Source: Hyphomicrobiales bacterium (GTDB lineage Bacteria; Pseudomonadota; Alphaproteobacteria; Rhizobiales; Rhizobiaceae). Taken from it: 42,313 nucleotides of DNA. Both the position numbers and the translations under genes were made by a program. Below, piece after piece: positions 631 to 40,766 of this stretch; position 1 is the first letter of the stretch; every line of letters begins with the position of its first letter. Below the pieces are notes generated by a model. The model was not told where the DNA came from and searched no databases. It saw nothing but the letters and a program-made list of their open reading frames with translations. The stretch is from the NCBI GenBank assembly GCA_011087605.1, contig JAALLE010000029.1, positions 1-42,313 on the forward strand. The letters run 5' to 3'.

Positions 631-673
631 ACTAGTAAACAGAACGTATCGGATCCGGTACACTTTCTGGACC
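631..673 (-). promoter_or_regulatory. Shared promoter/operator element, copy A (SnoaL-like gene)
   Basis: Read on the minus strand, this is GGTCCA-GAAAG-TGTACCG, then 19 nt containing TAC at positions 8-10 and ending TTT, then ACTAGT. The first 17 bp form an imperfect palindrome of GGTnCA-N5-TGTACC type. The same arrangement with identical spacing is seen at 1421-1463 (minus) and 3647-3689 (plus). It probably combines a regulator operator with a promoter; the HxlR regulator at 1735-2403 is the nearest candidate to bind it. Confidence 0.65.
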
Positions 674-733
674 GTGATGAAAAAGTTCGATCATGAAATT
701 GCCCGGTGAAGTTTGATGTTGGCCAACAAAACA

Positions 734-766
734 AAACGAGCCCCCCCCAAATTGAGAGGCTCGTTT
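734..766 (-). terminator. Rho-independent terminator after the DUF1127/Popeye-like unit
   Basis: On the minus strand AAACGAGCC pairs with GGCTCGTTT (9 bp) around a loop that includes a run of Gs, followed by the T-rich tail TTTTGTTTTG. It lies between the stop codon of the membrane protein gene (814) and the promoter of the SnoaL-like gene (631-673), so it separates the two transcripts. Confidence 0.75.
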
Positions 767-813
767 CAAGCTTATCGACTATTTTTGTGGTTTGGTCCGG
801 GCGATTGCCAATT

Positions 814-1041
814 CTAAGTCAGGCTGGTTCGTGTTCGCATAATCAATATGATCTGAAAAACGTTCAGGCTGATAAAGAACAGGTTCCAGTAAATAATAGT
901 TGTGATCGGATCTGGTTGCATTGAAAAGTAGGTGACCAGTGTGGTCGCAGCGATCACGGTCAGCAACCGCAATTTCAGTATGTCCTTCACCATGTAAGAA
1001 AGCAGGTAAAGACCATTTGCCAAATAGATGAGAATTTCCAT
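814..1041 (-). CDS. Small Popeye-type membrane protein
   Basis: This 75-residue protein is almost entirely membrane: an N-terminal helix from about residue 2 to 17 (ILIYLANGLYLLSYM), a basic turn VKDILKLR, a second segment (LLTVIAATTLVTYF), the loop QPDP, and a third helix (YWNLFFISLNVFQIILI). The order LANxLYLxSYxVKDILxLRLLTV...YFxxQPDP...WNxFFIxLNxxQI is what I recall from the membrane part of bacterial Popeye-domain proteins; this version lacks any cytoplasmic cyclic-nucleotide domain. Start ATG 1041 follows an AAGGAG site. It sits 48 bp downstream of the DUF1127 gene on the same strand and probably shares its transcript. A second open frame over the same DNA has no such features and is taken to be a shadow. 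The molecular role is unknown. Confidence 0.7.
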   Translation of the reverse strand: MEILIYLANGLYLLSYMVKDILKLRLLTVIAATTLVTYFSMQPDPITTIIYWNLFFISLNVFQIILIMRTRTSLT

Positions 1042-1057
1042 TTTGAATGCTCCTTGC

Positions 1058-1082
1058 CGGTGCTCTGAATCTCAAAGCACCG
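1058..1082 (-). other. Hairpin between the DUF1127 and Popeye-like genes
   Basis: CGGTGCT and AGCACCG form a 7-bp stem around an 11-nt loop in the 48-bp gap between the two genes. There is no T tract, so it is more likely an RNA processing or stability element than a full terminator. Confidence 0.45.
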
Positions 1083-1089
1083 TGGCTTT

Positions 1090-1359
1090 CTAGAACGCCT
1101 GGTGAATGTGTTTGGCCCGAAAGTTGGGGCCGTTATCGATCTTGCCGTAGACAGCGTCACCAATCTGATATCGTGCCAGGCCAATATCTTTGAGCAGTCG
1201 ATCGTCGAGCTTGTTCATGTGCAGCGCAGCGCGACGTTTATGCTTCCGTTTCTTGAATTCACTCCAAATCGACTTGAAGCCATTCACTATGCTGAATGCG
1301 GATTTGCCGAAGCTGTGCCACGAATTACGATGGGCCAAATTTATTGTTGTCATGGTCAT
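1090..1359 (-). CDS. DUF1127 (YjiS-like) small basic protein
   Basis: The 89-residue product carries a C-terminal DUF1127 motif (RRAALHMNKLDDRLLKDIGL, about residues 43-62) preceded by a basic linker EFKKRKHKRR. Family members are short proteins of alpha- and gammaproteobacteria; some have been tied to RNA turnover and phosphate or stress responses, but no reaction is assigned. The frame extends 21 codons further upstream, but ATG 1359 is preferred because AAAGGAG precedes it by six bases. It is the first gene of a unit with the Popeye-like membrane protein. Upstream lies copy B of the shared 43-bp promoter/operator element, at the same 62-nt distance seen for the SnoaL-like gene. Confidence 0.88.
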   Translation of the reverse strand: MTMTTINLAHRNSWHSFGKSAFSIVNGFKSIWSEFKKRKHKRRAALHMNKLDDRLLKDIGLARYQIGDAVYGKIDNGPNFRAKHIHQAF

Positions 1360-1420
1360 GATGATCTCCTTTGGAATTGACGTTTTGACACGACAAATCT
1401 GGTCTGGAGATCGCGTTTTC

Positions 1421-1463
1421 ACTAGTGAAGCAAGAGTACTGCTGTCGGTACACTTTCTGAATC
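1421..1463 (-). promoter_or_regulatory. Shared promoter/operator element, copy B (DUF1127 gene)
   Basis: On the minus strand this reads GATTCA-GAAAG-TGTACCG, 19 nt with TAC at positions 8-10 and ending TTC, then ACTAGT. CAGAAAGTGTACCG is identical in copies A and B, and the distance to the start codon (62 nt) is identical too. Confidence 0.65.
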
Positions 1464-1734
1464 GGTGTCCGATTTTTGCGCTAGTTTTTTCGGTTTTTAG
1501 TGGTGATTTAGCGATAATCCTTCAGCACAATTTGTGTTGAAAGCATTCATCTATTGTCGGCATTCTCCGACGCTGTTTGGCCAATGATCCCATTGGCGGC
1601 AATTTCCGCTTCTAAGAGCCCTTGGAAGTGGAAATGCGATAGTGCCGGTTAGATGGATTTACACGTCGACTGCAATCGGTGTGAGTGCTGAAAGTTTTTT
1701 TACCAACCGACTTCCAGACCATCAGGTAGTTGTG
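1464..1734. other. Intergenic stretch with one inverted repeat
   Basis: Together with the promoter at 1421-1463 this makes a gap of about 375 bp between the DUF1127 gene and the HxlR gene, both on the minus strand. Apart from an inverted repeat GCCAATG-atcc-CATTGGC at 1580-1597, which could fold as a small hairpin downstream of the HxlR gene, I see no gene or further signal. Confidence 0.4.
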
Positions 1735-2403
1735 TCAGCCATCCTTGAACAACCAGCTGTCAATGGTTCTCATCAGTAAGGGGTCGCCGGTCATATAGAT
1801 CCGGTCGTTTGCGATTTCGGTCTGCAGGTCGGAATATTGCATCCAGGCAGACCCAAGTGCCTGAAGGTCCGACTCCACATACAAATCAACGTCAAACTTC
1901 GGGTCAATCATGCATAGCTCAACAGAAACGCCGGGACGAGAAACCATCCACCATGTGGCTTCATCCTTTTCGCATTCTGGAAAGTTGAAACGAACAACTG
2001 TTCTTCGATTGGGCAAGTTGGACTGCACGACATCCTTATGAAGGTTCCACATCAGATAGTCGGGTTTCAGATTCTCCATTGCAACTTCCGGCTTGACGTG
2101 CCGGTAAGCCCAGTCGCCCAGCAAATCAATAACCGGATCAAGCTCTTCTGAGAGCCCAGTGCGAACATAGTCAACCGTACCTTTTGCATGATCTTCCAAT
2201 CGCTCAATTAGACCCAGAGCTTCCATCTCCTTGAGACGACGCGACAGTAATGTTGGTGAGATCCCGGGTACAGCGCGTCGGATTTCGTTAAATCTGGAAG
2301 CCCCGCCGCGCATTTCGTTTAAAATTATCAAGGTCCACCGGGGCTCAACGATTTCGCAAGCCATCGCCAGGGGACAAAACATTCCGTATCCACTTGCAGT
2401 CAT
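1735..2403 (-). CDS. HxlR-family transcriptional regulator with C-terminal extension
   Basis: The first ~100 residues are a winged helix-turn-helix of HxlR type: CPLAMACEIVEPRWTLIILNEM, then SRFNEIRRAVPGISPTLLSRR, then LKEMEALGLIER. HxlR proteins are usually about 110-130 residues; this one has a further ~110 residues with an alpha/beta pattern ending in LLMRTIDSWLF, possibly an SCP2-like ligand domain. Cys10 and Cys16 lie at the N-terminus, where related regulators such as YodB and HypR carry redox-sensing cysteines. Start ATG 2403 has GAAGGA just upstream. The gene lies between three transcription units that share a GGTnCA-N5-TGTACC palindrome, so it is the best candidate to control them; that link is inference. 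No copy of the palindrome was found before the gene itself. Confidence 0.88.
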   Translation of the reverse strand: MTASGYGMFCPLAMACEIVEPRWTLIILNEMRGGASRFNEIRRAVPGISPTLLSRRLKEMEALGLIERLEDHAKGTVDYVRTGLSEELDPVIDLLGDWAYRHVKPEVAMENLKPDYLMWNLHKDVVQSNLPNRRTVVRFNFPECEKDEATWWMVSRPGVSVELCMIDPKFDVDLYVESDLQALGSAWMQYSDLQTEIANDRIYMTGDPLLMRTIDSWLFKDG

Positions 2404-2548
2404 TTTCCTTCATACTCCCTTTGAAACAAGGCTTGGTGATATTTAGCCGGCGAGGGCAGCAGTTCGAATGTGGGCCGATTAGGTCATGACGAGCCTAGCA
2501 TCGGATTTTATCGAATCAAATTTGTGCCGAATAATCGTGCATTAAATA

Positions 2549-2566
2549 GGCGGCTTGTCAGCCGCC
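2549..2566 (-). terminator. Hairpin terminator after the GNAT gene
   Basis: GGCGGCT and AGCCGCC pair over 7 bp around a 4-nt loop, 38 bp beyond the stop codon of the minus-strand GNAT gene. On that strand it is followed by TATTTAAT, a modest U-rich tail. Confidence 0.6.
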
Positions 2567-2603
2567 AAACCATTTCCACCCACTTTGTATTTTCAGGTGC
2601 TAC

Positions 2604-3422
2604 CTAGGCGGGTTGCCAATTGTCTCTCGCATGGGTTTCGCTAAATCCGTTTTTCAGGATGTTTGCATAAGAGTGTTGTGGGTCGCCGGGAACGGCAACT
2701 CCGGTACATGTATAAAGCCGTTTTGCCCCCATTTCGATCGCGCTGGATACCCGATGGGAGAGAAGTGAAGACTGCACGCCTCTTGAGCGAAACTTTGGCG
2801 ACGTTGCTCCAAAGTCTGTATAGGCTGCGTCTCCATCCACATACAACGCGCCACAACCGGCTGGAGCATCGCCCAAAAATGCCATGAATGCGTGCCAACC
2901 CTTAGCCTCTGGTAGTTTGGCCAGCCACGGCACCGCTTGACTACCCAGATCAAAAGCATCGCACACGATTTCTGCAAAACTCTCGCAATGCTGCTGGTCT
3001 ACAGCAAGGATGTTGAATTCAGTATTTATTTCAGAAACAGGCTCTGATGCGGACCGGGAAAATTTTTGCCAGGCCCGCGCTGGTTTCAACCCGGATTGAC
3101 GAAACTGCGAATCTGTTTGATTGGCTTGCAGATTGGGGGATGGCTGGACAAAGAACCGTTCAACACCAGCTTGACGGTACAATCCAACGGCGGTTTTGGT
3201 GTCCCGAAATGCTTGTTCCGGCGATCGGCCAAAGCCCAACGTCCGATTGATTGTTATTGCAGACGCGGGCAGCGCTGATGCGATTGAAATCGTCGTGTCG
3301 CCCAAACTAACCATTCGAAGGCCAAGATTTTCCGTAAGCGTTTTGTCAGCGACGCCATGAAGAGAACGAAGCGCGTCATTCTCGATTTTTTCGGCTTCAA
3401 CGGAAGCAGTGTTCATTGTCAT
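2604..3422 (-). CDS. GNAT-family N-acetyltransferase
   Basis: This 272-residue protein has its GNAT domain in the C-terminal half. AFMAFLGDAPAGCGALYVDGDAAYTDFGATSPKFRSRGVQSSLL gives strand beta4 and the acetyl-CoA P-loop (about residues 190-232; core FRSRGVQSSLL, a Q/RxxGxG/A variant), and SYANILKNGF is the usual final helix and strand. The N-terminal half also looks like a degenerate GNAT-like fold, so this may be a two-domain member. The frame opens at 3455, but ATG 3422 (MTMNT), with GGAAAG upstream, is preferred; ATG 3416 is also possible. It lies alone on the minus strand, and the 358-bp gap to the peroxiredoxin gene holds a divergent promoter. The acceptor substrate is unknown. Confidence 0.8.
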   Translation of the reverse strand: MTMNTASVEAEKIENDALRSLHGVADKTLTENLGLRMVSLGDTTISIASALPASAITINRTLGFGRSPEQAFRDTKTAVGLYRQAGVERFFVQPSPNLQANQTDSQFRQSGLKPARAWQKFSRSASEPVSEINTEFNILAVDQQHCESFAEIVCDAFDLGSQAVPWLAKLPEAKGWHAFMAFLGDAPAGCGALYVDGDAAYTDFGATSPKFRSRGVQSSLLSHRVSSAIEMGAKRLYTCTGVAVPGDPQHSYANILKNGFSETHARDNWQPA

Positions 3423-3646
3423 TTTCTTTCCAATCATTCTTTTTGGTTCATCCAATCAACAGACCGCCGTGCGTCCTGACTTAGAGGTGCAGACCCTGAC
3501 TGCCATTTCCAACAGTGTTGGATAGCAAGATATTTGGCCGTCACCTGGAGTACCTGTCGAGACAAGCCGGTCCGCGGTTTGAATATGATGCGATCATCTA
3601 ACAGTTGGCAGCGTCAAAAATGCAGTCCCGCGAATGTATTGAAGCT

Positions 3647-3689
3647 GGTACAGAATATGTACCGGCAAAACTACATATCCTTCACTACG
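3647..3689 (+). promoter_or_regulatory. Shared promoter/operator element, copy C (peroxiredoxin gene)
   Basis: GGTACA-GAATA-TGTACC at 3647-3663 is a perfect 6+6 palindrome. It is followed by G, a 19-nt stretch with TAC at positions 8-10 and ending TTC, then ACTACG. This is the same 43-bp layout as copies A and B, on the opposite strand, reading into the peroxiredoxin gene 97 nt away. The rest of the 3423-3780 gap shows no gene I would support. Confidence 0.65.
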
Positions 3690-3780
3690 CAGGAACAATC
3701 CGCGTGCCTAAAACGGCGCTGAGGGGCGCAGTCTCAATGAGCTGTGGTTCTCCCGTCAATAAAACACGAAGGATAAAATC

Positions 3781-4431
3781 ATGAGCATTCGAATTAACCA
3801 AACCATCCCGAATTTTTCTGCAACAACAGACCAGGGAGTGATTGATTTTCACCAATGGATGAACGGGTCCTGGACAATTCTGTTTTCACACCCGAAGGAT
3901 TTCACACCAGTTTGTACAACCGAGTTCGCGATTGTCGCGCAGCTCGAAAATGAGTGGCAAAAACGAAATACCAAAGTAATTGGCATCTCGGTCGACTCGG
4001 CTGAACAACACCGCAATTGGAAGAAGGATATTGAATCCTTTGGTGGAACCGATGTTGCATTTCCTATCATTGCAGACGACGACATGGAAATTTCCAAACT
4101 ATTGGACATGCTTCCCGCAGAAGCTTACCTGCCGGACGGCCGCACAGCTGCTGATACCGCCACAGTTCGATCTGTGCTGATCATTGGCCCAGACAAGAAG
4201 CTCAAGCTTACCTTGACCTATCCGATGAACATTGGGCGAAACTTTGATGAAATCCTCAGAGTTCTGGATGGATTGCAACTGGCGGCAGCACAGAACGTCG
4301 CAACCCCCGCGAATTGGTCTCCGGGAGACAATATTGTGATACCGGTTACGGTGAGCGATGCGGAAGCTTCAGCAAAATACGGTGAATTTGAAAAACACTT
4401 CTCATATCTCAGAACCGCCCAGCCGGTTTAA
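3781..4431 (+). CDS. 1-Cys peroxiredoxin (Prx6 / AhpC-TSA family)
   Basis: This 216-residue thiol peroxidase reduces H2O2 and organic peroxides in the cytoplasm. The peroxidatic cysteine is Cys45 in the motif DFTPVCTTE. There is no second cysteine anywhere in the chain, so it must rely on an external thiol for recycling, as Prx6-type enzymes do. The C-terminal dimerisation part of the Prx6 class follows (TYPMNIGRNFDEILRVLDGLQLA, then NWSPGDNIVIPV). Length is normal for the class. ATG 3781 has GAAGGAT upstream. It is transcribed alone from the palindromic promoter copy C and ends about 30 bp before the convergent LysR gene. The shared operator and the cysteine-bearing HxlR nearby suggest oxidant or electrophile control. 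Confidence 0.93.
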   Translation: MSIRINQTIPNFSATTDQGVIDFHQWMNGSWTILFSHPKDFTPVCTTEFAIVAQLENEWQKRNTKVIGISVDSAEQHRNWKKDIESFGGTDVAFPIIADDDMEISKLLDMLPAEAYLPDGRTAADTATVRSVLIIGPDKKLKLTLTYPMNIGRNFDEILRVLDGLQLAAAQNVATPANWSPGDNIVIPVTVSDAEASAKYGEFEKHFSYLRTAQPV

Positions 4432-5355: not shown

Positions 5356-5477
5356 GGGCTGGTCAAATTCTTAAGGGATAATAATTCTAAGTCTATACCC
5401 CAGATATATCAGTTTGAAAACAAATTTTACTTAGTCAATCTTAGGCCGGCAAACATTTGAAACAAGGAGACGAGACG

Positions 5478-5720
5478 ATGAAATCCGCAACTCAAAATAC
5501 AATCCATTATTTTCCCACCCGCGCCAGGTTAAATCCAAAGGATTCCGCTGTTGCGTTCATCATCCGGATGGCGAAGGTGGTTCGGCAATGGAGTGATCGA
5601 GCATCACAACGCCGGAGATTGTCTTGCATGACGCCTCGGGAGTTGAACGACATTGGTATTACTGCAGAGCAAGCCTGGAATGAGGCTGCCAAGCCGTTCT
5701 GGCAAACGTGCTGGCGTTAA
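5478..5720 (+). CDS. DUF1127 small protein (second copy)
   Basis: An 80-residue protein with the DUF1127 core near its middle: QWSDRASQRRRLSCMTPRELNDIGIT. Unlike the first copy it has an N-terminal extension with an amphipathic segment (AVAFIIRMAKVVRQW). The frame begins at an earlier ATG (5457), but ATG 5478 is chosen because AAGGAGA lies seven bases upstream. It is divergent from the GcvA-like LysR and 110 bp upstream of the PhzF gene. It lacks the shared 43-bp promoter element, so it is probably under different control from the first DUF1127 gene. Function unknown. Confidence 0.82.
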   Translation: MKSATQNTIHYFPTRARLNPKDSAVAFIIRMAKVVRQWSDRASQRRRLSCMTPRELNDIGITAEQAWNEAAKPFWQTCWR

Positions 5721-17185: not shown

Positions 17186-17824
17186 ATGGACTTTGACCTG
17201 ACCGCGTTGGATAGCATCAATCCGGGAGACCGGGTTGTGTACAGCGATGGTGCTGACGAGAAAGTTGTTGGTGAGTTTATGGGTGGGCATTTGCTACAAA
17301 GCCCGAAATTCAAAGGTGGAACGACCCTCTTCTTGAATCTCTACGGCCATACGATTTTGACTATTCGTGCGGAATCTAGCTGCGAGGAGCCTTCGGACTG
17401 GCTGATCTGGCTGACAAAGACGCTGGATGAGACAGAGGAGTTTCGAAAGGCAATCGACGCCGCGAATGAACTTTGCCGGGAGTCCTTTCGATCGGATGGC
17501 GTATTCGAAATTCCGATCTCAAAAATCAGTCTCGCCAGGGCGTTGGATCAACCCCCTGAATGGGAAGCTGAAAACCACAACCTCAAAATAGCCAGAGCAA
17601 AAGCAACGGATGTTGATCCGGTGCACAAGCGCGCGGCAAGATTCGTCAAGAATTTGGGCGCCGCTTTGAACGATTATAAATTGATCCGGCAGCAATCCAG
17701 CAATGGCAGCGGGTTCGAGGTCGTTCGTCTGCCCAAGCCAGGGCAGGCAATGGCTCCGGTATTTGTCTATGGTCCACGCCCACGGGACGAGGCTGTGGTG
17801 AGCCAGATTGTTCGCGGTTCATGA
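17186..17824 (+). CDS. Protein of unknown function, last gene of the FAH/ABC operon
   Basis: I do not recognise this 212-residue protein. It is soluble, with no signal peptide or membrane segment. The N-terminal half is strand-rich (NPGDRVVYSDGADEKVVGEF, then TLFLNLYGHTILTIRAE) and the rest is helical and charged, ending with a strand-like FEVVRLPKPGQAMAPVFVYGPRP. The frame is open upstream into the oxidase gene, but ATG 17186 has GGGAG about nine bases before it. Its 3' end overlaps the stop of the convergent LysR gene by six bases. The 25-bp gap to the oxidase suggests co-transcription, so it may be an accessory to the pathway; that is inference only. Confidence 0.8.
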   Translation: MDFDLTALDSINPGDRVVYSDGADEKVVGEFMGGHLLQSPKFKGGTTLFLNLYGHTILTIRAESSCEEPSDWLIWLTKTLDETEEFRKAIDAANELCRESFRSDGVFEIPISKISLARALDQPPEWEAENHNLKIARAKATDVDPVHKRAARFVKNLGAALNDYKLIRQQSSNGSGFEVVRLPKPGQAMAPVFVYGPRPRDEAVVSQIVRGS

Positions 17825-18724
17825 GTCCAGTCGTATCAAGCTGAAGGCCTTTGCAATTTCATTACACAACAGGTGTTTAATGGGTGCCATATTGATCTGA
17901 TCTGAAACAATAACTCCAAGCTTCAGACTTTTCAGATGAGCCAGTTCCAAAGGAACGTAACGCAGCATGCCAGCCTCGATTTCTTTAAGAAAACCAAGTT
18001 TTGTATAGAGTCCCAAACCCCGGCCACGAATGATCATTTCGCGGGCCATTGGCTGCGAATTTGTGAACATCGTTGTGGAGAGCAGCGGGGCAATGTCGGA
18101 AACCACCTGGTCAATAATCGACTGGCCCCCGCGCGCGTCGATGGAGCGGATCATGGGGAAGCCGGCAAGGTCTGCCACGCTCAGACTGTGGCGTTCTGCA
18201 AGCGGGTGATTTGGCAGCATCACGACGCCAATCGGTGCGGACTTTTCCGTCAAACTGCGAACACCTGGATGAGCGTCATCGACAAATGAAATGCCAATAT
18301 CTGTGCTGTCATCCGATACAGAATTTACAATTTCGTCTGGCTGCGCTGTTGTTACTGAATAGGTAACCTGCGGGTAAGTTTCAGAAAACTGGTCCAGTAT
18401 GGTGGGCAAAATTCCAAGCGAAATCGAATCAAGCGTCATAATTTCCACATGCCCGGTTCGCATGTCGCGAATGTCCTCAATCAGGATGCTCACCCGTTCA
18501 AAATCAAACAGGGTTTTGCGACAGTGCTCCAGCACGATCGACCCCGCACTGGTCAGTTTCACACCTTCAGAACTCCTGTGAAATAGTTTCACGCCGAGTT
18601 TTTTTTCAGTGCCCAATATATTCCTGTTCACCGATGTGGATGAGATGTTGAGAATTTTGGCGGCTTTTCGGATTGAACCTTGCCTGGCGACTTCGTCAAA
18701 ATGTCGCAAAAAGCTACTATGCAT
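17819..18724 (-). CDS. LysR-family regulator of the second catabolic operon
   Basis: A 301-residue LysR protein. The winged helix is at the N-terminus (SSFLRHFDEVARQGSIRKAAKILNISSTSVNRNI, then LGVKLFHRSSEGVKLTSAG) and the co-inducer domain starts near residue 92 (HVEIMTLDSISLGILPTILDQF). ATG 18724 places the helix-turn-helix at the usual position; the frame is open 46 codons further upstream but those residues do not look like LysR. It is divergent from the Tat-exported binding-protein gene at 18863 with 138 bp between, the classic arrangement for a LysR activator of a catabolic operon. Its 3' end overlaps that of the unknown gene by six bases. Confidence 0.9.
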   Translation of the reverse strand: MHSSFLRHFDEVARQGSIRKAAKILNISSTSVNRNILGTEKKLGVKLFHRSSEGVKLTSAGSIVLEHCRKTLFDFERVSILIEDIRDMRTGHVEIMTLDSISLGILPTILDQFSETYPQVTYSVTTAQPDEIVNSVSDDSTDIGISFVDDAHPGVRSLTEKSAPIGVVMLPNHPLAERHSLSVADLAGFPMIRSIDARGGQSIIDQVVSDIAPLLSTTMFTNSQPMAREMIIRGRGLGLYTKLGFLKEIEAGMLRYVPLELAHLKSLKLGVIVSDQINMAPIKHLLCNEIAKAFSLIRLDS

Positions 18725-18782
18725 TGTTTTTTCTGCCTGTTTTGATGGTGGTACATTTTTTGCACCACTGTTAGCATAATTC

Positions 18783-39587: not shown

Positions 39588-40766
39588 ATGCCAGAAGACC
39601 ATGAAGCCGCCAATGGTGGTGCAGCCCTAGGCTATGACTACGATGAAACTGGTTCCGCTCATACCAACAAATGTGGTGGCATGTTGTGGTCGACCGGTGG
39701 TCGTCTGGTTGCCAGTGATGGTTCCGACGAAACGCCCGCCGACGTCCACGGTCTCCAAGGTAATTCGACAGACCTAGTTCGCCCGGAGAATGTTCCTCCT
39801 GTGGCGTCATACTTTGTCGATTATGATGGCCTGACTGGCGATTCTCACAAGGCTGGCCACATGGGAGATGTTGAAATCTTCCAACCTTGCCTGGAGACAG
39901 CTGAACACCAGTATCCACCGGGCTATTTCCCACCATATGATGATTCACCAGAAGATTGGCCACCGGAATTTACTCCACCAGAAGATCCATTCCACACCAA
40001 CTTGCGTCTGACCAAGACGGCATCGCCAAAAGACTGCTTGCCGATGTTTGGTGGTTGGTCTTGCCAATATAAAATAATTGTTCGTAACACCGGTCCCGAC
40101 CGCTATTGGGGCGACATATTGGTGAGAGATGTGGTGCCAGCAGCACCAGCAGGTACCTACTTTGGTGTTGGTCCCGTGCCACCTTGGTCTTGCTGGACAG
40201 CAGGTCCTGCGGAATTGCAGTGCTGGCGTCCAAACGTCATCCTCAATGTCGGTCAATATGTGGAATTGAAAGTCAATGTTTGGGTGCCAAATTCCTACAA
40301 CAGGTGCCGTCTGCGCAACATTGCGGAAATCGAATGGGCTCCTGGTGGAACTCAGTGGAACACGGATCCAGACGACGACTTTGATGGTGCGTCTTCCCGA
40401 ATTCCGTTGCCGCATTGTCTGCCAGTGCACCGGCCAATCGGTTCCAATGTTCACCGTCCAAAGGCTTCGACCGTCCACTATCCACGCGGTTCGAAGATCC
40501 ACCGTCCAAGAGGCTCGAAGGTCCACCGTCCAAGAGGCTCGAAGGTCCACCGTCCGAAGGGATCTAAGGTCCATCTCCCAAGGGGATCCAAGGTTCATCG
40601 TCCGAGGGGATCTAAGGTTCATCTCCCAAGGGGATCCAAGGTCCATCGTCCGAGAGGTTCGCGGATCCATCGTCCAAAGGGTTCAAAGGTCCATTTGCCT
40701 AAAGGTTCCAGGATCCTGGTTCCACGTTCGCAAAACCTGCAACTGAACAAGGCGCCTACAAACTAA
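39588..40766 (+). CDS. C-terminal segment of the interrupted secreted protein (DUF11-like, octapeptide tail)
   Basis: This 392-residue frame follows the TAG stop in the same reading frame as the segment before it. After a Cys-containing stretch and a proline/acidic linker (EHQYPPGYFPPYDDSPEDWPPEF) comes a DUF11-like domain, LRLTKTASPKDCLPMFGGWSCQYKIIVRNTGPDRYWGDILVRD ending NIAEIEWAPGG...NTDPDDDFDGA, as in bacterial cell-surface proteins. The last ~110 residues are thirteen basic octapeptides. Internal Met 39588 has no ribosome binding site, so separate translation is doubtful. The C-terminus has no LPxTG or PEP-CTERM signal. Confidence 0.7.
   Translation: MPEDHEAANGGAALGYDYDETGSAHTNKCGGMLWSTGGRLVASDGSDETPADVHGLQGNSTDLVRPENVPPVASYFVDYDGLTGDSHKAGHMGDVEIFQPCLETAEHQYPPGYFPPYDDSPEDWPPEFTPPEDPFHTNLRLTKTASPKDCLPMFGGWSCQYKIIVRNTGPDRYWGDILVRDVVPAAPAGTYFGVGPVPPWSCWTAGPAELQCWRPNVILNVGQYVELKVNVWVPNSYNRCRLRNIAEIEWAPGGTQWNTDPDDDFDGASSRIPLPHCLPVHRPIGSNVHRPKASTVHYPRGSKIHRPRGSKVHRPRGSKVHRPKGSKVHLPRGSKVHRPRGSKVHLPRGSKVHRPRGSRIHRPKGSKVHLPKGSRILVPRSQNLQLNKAPTN
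40428..40739 (+). repeat. Thirteen tandem 24-bp repeats coding for HRPRGSKV-like octapeptides
   Basis: From 40428 the sequence repeats every 24 bp, in frame. Units read HRPIGSNV, HRPKASTV, HYPRGSKI, HRPRGSKV (twice), HRPKGSKV, HLPRGSKV, HRPRGSKV, HLPRGSKV, HRPRGSRI, HRPKGSKV, HLPKGSRI and a degraded LVPRSQNL. Central units are almost identical, outer ones degenerate, as in recombination-maintained arrays. His at position 1 and Pro at position 3 are nearly constant, with 2-3 basic residues per unit. Confidence 0.95.

Follow-up and report, generated by a model that had tools for sequence, protein, structure and literature searches.

What do three copies of one conserved element do in front of three different genes, and which protein reads them? 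The question arises in a 42,313-nucleotide stretch of a Hyphomicrobiales genome (contig JAALLE010000029.1, positions 1 to 42,313; “the window”), where an earlier note, made from the letters alone, had described the element and placed its copies. We recovered all three, at 633-673 (minus strand), 1423-1463 (minus) and 3647-3687 (plus). From comparison with related loci, the element is probably a tandem operator for the HxlR-type regulator whose gene (1735-2403, minus) lies between the sites, with the regulator acting as an activator on a promoter just outside the element.

A paired palindrome in three places

The element consists of two tandem 17-bp palindromes, boxes A and B, with centres 23 bp apart. 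Site 1 (634-673, minus; box A 657-673, box B 634-650) reads GGTCCAGAAAGTGTACC-GGATCC-GATACGTTCTGTTTACT and precedes a gene for a SnoaL-like protein. Site 2 (1424-1463, minus; box A 1447-1463, box B 1424-1440) reads GATTCAGAAAGTGTACC-GACAGC-AGTACTCTTGCTTCACT and precedes a DUF1127 gene, while site 3 (3647-3686, plus; box A 3647-3663, box B 3670-3686) reads GGTACAGAATATGTACC-GGCAAA-ACTACATATCCTTCACT and precedes a peroxiredoxin gene. The shared GGTnCA pattern proposed in the earlier note holds without mismatch at sites 1 and 3 and fails by one mismatch at site 2, which reads GATTCA. That note had seen a regulatory element with a palindrome, and box A does look like a protein-binding dyad. It had not remarked that the second half is palindromic too: the TAC-N6-TTYACTA block is box B, a less perfect palindrome of the box A type. 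It had also passed over a third box at site 3; with it the site is a B-A-B triplet (3624-3640, 3647-3663 and 3670-3686) oriented in both directions. In the minus direction the site spans 3624-3663, uses the same box A and points towards a GNAT-type gene. All 76 foreign sites that were tested lack such a third box.

The element is genuine, and its repetition is well beyond chance. The 41-bp pattern, when at most 3 mismatches are tolerated, is confined in the 4.19-Mb genome to sites 1-3, and a backward control pattern does not occur at all. We also refined a two-box model on foreign genomes, using the window sites only as seed; it gave scores of 24.6 at site 1, 28.8 at site 2, 34.0 at site 3 plus and 29.1 at site 3 minus. 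The remaining window scores of at least 6 were reverse readings of these sites (13.4, 13.1 and 9.6), and dinucleotide shuffles of the window (n = 100) reached at most 21.8. When a profile made from 75 foreign sites was run over the whole of the window's own genome, its top four matches were again sites 1-3, site 3 being matched twice: site 3 minus ranked first in the entire genome (expectation value, E, 0.0010), with site 3 plus at 0.0023, site 1 at 0.0065 (match 639-672) and site 2 at 0.0083. In fifth place came a match that precedes a second hxlR gene (C160) by 50-60 bp. With stricter filters, the profile search of this genome returned no match at E 0.001.

The half-sites of box A, GGTNCAN5TGTACC, occur exactly at three places in the genome, all of them inside the window (657, 3647 and 18750). 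The last of these, the palindrome GGTGCAAAAAATGTACC at 18750-18766, had escaped comment in the earlier note; it is flanked by a LysR gene on the minus strand (17819-18724) and a transporter-type gene on the plus strand. We rejected it as a member of the element, since it lacks a second box and the two-box score there stays below 6. It is probably a LysR site outside this regulon.

Association with hxlR genes

The distribution of the element among relatives bears on the question of which protein reads it. We used the best 80 of 540 loci encoding relatives of the window HxlR, chosen independently of the motif, and counted a match as beside hxlR if it lay at most 200 bp upstream or at most 250 bp downstream; these flanks make up 4.7% of the sequence. 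With a model of the three window sites, which had seen none of the 80 loci, the best match of the whole locus adjoined hxlR in 76/80. The misses were L094, L104, L161 and L116, and in L116 the match precedes a second hxlR by about 50 bp. Thirty column-permuted models applied to the same loci averaged 5.4 and never exceeded 11. When one locus was kept per 70%-identity cluster, the element stood beside hxlR in 34/38, and a six-site model, which had seen two of its 80 loci beforehand, found it in 77/80 (misses L088, L094 and L116). The best flank matches lay upstream of hxlR and faced away from it in 60 loci, lay downstream and faced away in 20, and never faced towards hxlR, three of the 80 being poor matches.

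In contrast, the element was present in 0/29 peroxiredoxin orthologue loci of about 3.6 kb each. The element therefore follows the regulator and not this target. The conservation upstream of orthologues that the earlier note had named as a check is thus absent at the peroxiredoxin and present at the HxlR relatives; its nomination of HxlR as the protein to test was well placed, and its statement that no listed gene explains the regulon finds no support. Neighboring genes differ among the HxlR-relative loci that carry the element. Two separate elements occur in 3/80 loci, namely L116 (4909 and 6224) and L157 and L162 (4905 and 5713 in each); in L116 each of the two is upstream of its own hxlR gene.

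A pattern scan of 397 genomes (the window's own and related ones) matched 6 foreign genomes, and this count alone is no evidence because the backward control matched 9 times. Three of the foreign matches adjoin hxlR (G113, where the HxlR has 50% identity, G187 and G156). The other three (L036, L037 and L039) have low scores, showed no HxlR by signature search and look like chance. At E 0.001 the profile found 8 places in 7 of 101 genomes, and hxlR lay within the 3-kb locus at 7 of the 8. The eighth (L179, 1501-1539, in G035) faces a gene that, by eye, resembles an MFS transporter; it is possibly a distant target of the regulator. The regulon is mostly local and may reach further.

The architecture seen in the window recurs in these relatives. 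Refinement of the model over the flanks of the 80 loci gave 77 sites scoring above 8; L088, L094 and L136 were dropped from later counts. The gap between the boxes was 6 nt in 52 sites, 5 nt in 24 and 4 nt in 1, that is, 5 or 6 nt in 76/77, and with the three-site model high scores became more numerous only at gaps of 5 and 6 nt (18 and 32 loci), with no more than 3 at other gaps. Across species box A is approximately A[GC]TnCA-nAWWC-TGTANC and box B approximately G[CG]TnCA-nTTnC-T[GA][CA]ACT, the two palindromes being arranged as an inverted repeat. The family dyad consensus is about AGTnCA-N5-TGnACT; window box A carries GGTnCA and TGTACC. In alignment A4 (75 sites, L126 and L146 also dropped), positions 2 and 16 of box A form G-C in 20 sites, C-G in 17, A-T in 3 and G-T in 11, and are unpaired in 24. 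Over the whole structure, four of five dyad measures exceed their shuffles. Six distant HxlR loci (L021, L024, L027, L031, L032 and L033) have apparent single boxes without a good partner, which may mean that the dyad predates the tandem arrangement.

Promoter geometry and mode of action

The earlier note had reported no sigma-70 promoter at the element, and we likewise rejected one: no pair with at least 9/12 matches to TTGACA and TATAAT occurs at sites 1-3. It had also remarked that sites 1 and 2 lie an equal 62 nt from their start codons. The distance is correct (from 631 to 569 and from 1421 to 1359, the start codon being ATG in both cases) and is ordinary, since among the 53 of the 77 loci with a good ribosome site and start, 34 have start codons 55-65 nt beyond box B; by this measure sites 1 and 2 stand at 64 nt.

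An xAxxxT signal, sometimes preceded by TG, starts 23-24 nt beyond box B in 60/76 loci (sites scoring above 12, with L146 left out) and in 27/34 cluster representatives; other offsets averaged 4.1 and reached 10 at most. Where the element lies between divergent genes, the signal is found on the hxlR side as well in 41/57. Where it lies downstream of hxlR, the signal is present on the target side in 13/19 and on the other side in 1/19. This placement is what a -10 should do, and we regard the signal as -10-like. Its position also speaks against the alternative promoter that the earlier note had suspected inside the element (no alternative-sigma model was run), the second block being the second dyad.

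With a -10 at 23-24 nt, transcription would begin some 35 nt past box B, the boxes would be centred near -44 and -67, and the promoter would have a poor -35. Box centres near -44 and -67 are activator positions, which leads us to read HxlR, with moderate confidence, as activating rather than repressing. The layout may be that of a class II-like promoter, with a -10-like signal that is fixed in the relatives but weak in the window. In the proposed mechanism, two HxlR dimers would sit on one element about two helical turns apart, given the 23 bp between centres. Box B would abut the -35 region of the promoter with its poor -35, and the dimers, centred near -44 and -67, would switch that promoter on. 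Site 1 would drive the SnoaL-like gene and site 2 the DUF1127 unit, while the triple box B-A-B of site 3 would serve the peroxiredoxin gene in one direction and the GNAT gene, perhaps hxlR too, in the other.

A different possibility is that HxlR represses from the same boxes. The promoter would then be embedded in them, with TGTACC at the end of box A as its -35, TnnACT at the end of box B as its -10 and a 17-bp spacer, and would be released on oxidation or by a ligand, as with YodB. The box spacing of 22-23 bp does equal a hexamer plus a 16-17-bp spacer, box B ends in TATACT or TACACT in some relatives, and a -10 matrix scores high there; repression is also the mode of many MarR/DUF24 proteins in the passages compared from PMC6943732. 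However, dyad symmetry also accounts for how box B ends, the fit to a -35 is poor (3/6 by eye), and the signal at +23/24, which appears only on sides facing a gene start, is left unexplained. Because of this last point we keep the embedded hexamers as a rival only, and we consider repression unlikely, though the most credible of the alternatives.

Activation by HxlR from a promoter outside the element has several observations to contend with. The window's -10 candidates, positioned by the offset seen in relatives, are all weak: CATGGT (606-611, minus) and CAGATT (1396-1401, minus), each 23 nt beyond box B of sites 1 and 2, respectively, TAAAAC (3709-3714, plus) at site 3 plus, which has no final T, and TTAGAT (3596-3601, minus) at site 3 minus, which has no A at position 2. 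With the -10 weight matrix, sequence within box B outscores that at +24, and the fifth dyad measure showed no excess (further pair types, 17 against a shuffled mean of 17.5). The link to hxlR has gaps as well: 3/80 HxlR loci gave no site above 8, the element of G035 has no hxlR inside its 3-kb locus, and in a broader HxlR set (L007-L035) a double box scoring at least 10 stood beside hxlR in only 12/29. Finally, the window hxlR has no element directly upstream, and the GNAT start is about 200 nt from the third box of site 3.

It could also be that another regulator reads the element and that hxlR is merely one of its targets. The assignment to HxlR comes from sequence comparison, and similar sites accompany two HxlR paralogues in the window's own genome. 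This is nevertheless improbable, as the element tracks the HxlR relatives despite their differing neighbors, and the base pair at 2/16 of box A varies among the sites of the HxlR proteins: C-G goes with Gln or His at HxlR residue 42 in 17/17, against 3/60 of the others, although on two independent occasions only. The other 2/16 bases go with Arg or Lys at residue 42 in 57/60. We rejected this covariation as firm evidence, since with two independent origins a sign test cannot reach significance; it is suggestive, and a contact between residue 42 and box A is possible. Mutual information over the HxlR columns gave no clear DNA contact. HxlR itself very probably binds the element. It is hardly credible, in spite of their clustering inside 3.1 kb, that the copies are functionless in themselves, whether as recent duplicates of one promoter segment or as a mobile repeat, as the similarity ends at the boxes, spacers and flanks differ, and the same layout stands beside HxlR genes in many families in different letters.

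The regulator, its predicted targets and its relatives

The window HxlR has 222 amino acids and consists of a winged-helix domain (Pfam HxlR, 66.9 bits) and an extra C-terminal part of about 110 residues. Its structure model has a pLDDT of 89.2, and an HxlR protein of Salipiger mucosus is 58% identical to it. The C-terminal half has no Pfam match; by fold it appears to resemble the C-terminal domain of the alkylsulfatase Pisa1 at 14% identity, in a fold list mainly filled by the first domain. The Pisa1 domain is SCP2-like; in the window HxlR its counterpart would be joined to a DNA-binding domain. Near the N-terminus, C10 is invariant in 81 sequences; P11 and L12 come next, with V12 in place of L12 in the consensus. 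The invariant cysteine and the alkylsulfatase-type domain suggest redox stress, or a compound that is reactive or hydrophobic, as the signal, which is speculative.

HxlR of Bacillus subtilis, a member of the MarR/DUF24 family, is a positive regulator of hxlAB, a mode that the window HxlR would share. The window protein shares with this family the winged-helix domain and a conserved Cys near the N-terminus. It differs from B. subtilis HxlR in the roughly 110 extra residues and in having no Cys-x-Lys pair (C10-P-L/V12); the formaldehyde switch of the B. subtilis type has such a pair in its first helix, C11/K13, in the passages compared from PMC7835342. The redox sensors YodB, HypR, CatR and QsrR differ from it in half-site and inner spacing (here AGTnCA-N5-TGnACT), and the present system has in addition two dyads at a fixed distance, an activation-type geometry and the extra domain. 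The comparison drew on passages from PMC7835342, PMC11633110, PMC4776306, PMC8063818 and PMC6943732.

The SnoaL-like protein behind site 1 (183-569, minus) belongs to the SgcJ/EcaC family (TIGR02246, 35.4 bits, cut-off 33.95), with Pfam DUF4440 below its cut-off. Behind site 2 stand the DUF1127 small protein (1090-1359, minus; Pfam DUF1127, 31.6 bits) and then a 75-residue protein (814-1041, minus) with a weak match to POPDC1-3 below cut-off. Site 3 faces a peroxiredoxin of the 1-Cys type (3781-4431, plus; AhpC-TSA 92.4 bits, 1-cysPrx_C 38.7 bits) and, in the minus direction, the GNAT-type gene (2604-3422, minus; Acetyltransf_1, 24.1 bits; start codon uncertain), whose link to site 3 is inferred. 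We rejected a conserved gene cluster: in L072-L163, searched by tblastn with eight window proteins, the SnoaL-like, 75-residue, GNAT and peroxiredoxin proteins had no match, and the matches obtained were scattered LysR ones and a single DUF1127 one (30% identity, in L126). A DUF1127 gene is the first gene behind the element in 4/77 loci as well as in the window, in a set of first-gene picks that may include wrong frames. A second DUF1127 gene in the window (5457-5720, plus) has no such element. Elsewhere in the window, an open reading frame at 39588-40766 has a repetitive tail of HRPRGSKV-like units.

The HxlR/DUF24 family of regulators is already known; what sets this member apart is its extra domain, its probable role as an activator and the paired site of fixed geometry. 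We found no description of the paired-site operator or of an HxlR-SCP2 subfamily in the open literature, which is weak evidence of novelty as most subscription journals lay outside the search. A wider proposal, which we hold only tentatively, is that a widespread HxlR subfamily with an SCP2-like sensor domain consists of ligand- or redox-gated activators working on a rigid two-dyad site, and that between divergent genes one symmetric site fires both promoters at once, whose -10s lie at the same 23-24 nt. In the window the site would have become the triple B-A-B and spread to three places, giving a small stress regulon of peroxiredoxin, DUF1127, SnoaL-like and GNAT genes.

These data suggest an operator and promoter geometry that can be read for a group of mostly alphaproteobacterial regulators, so that their targets would be predictable from sequence. 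Activation is predicted, contrary to the repressor default of MarR/DUF24 proteins, and the recurring DUF1127 targets may provide a handle on poorly understood genes.

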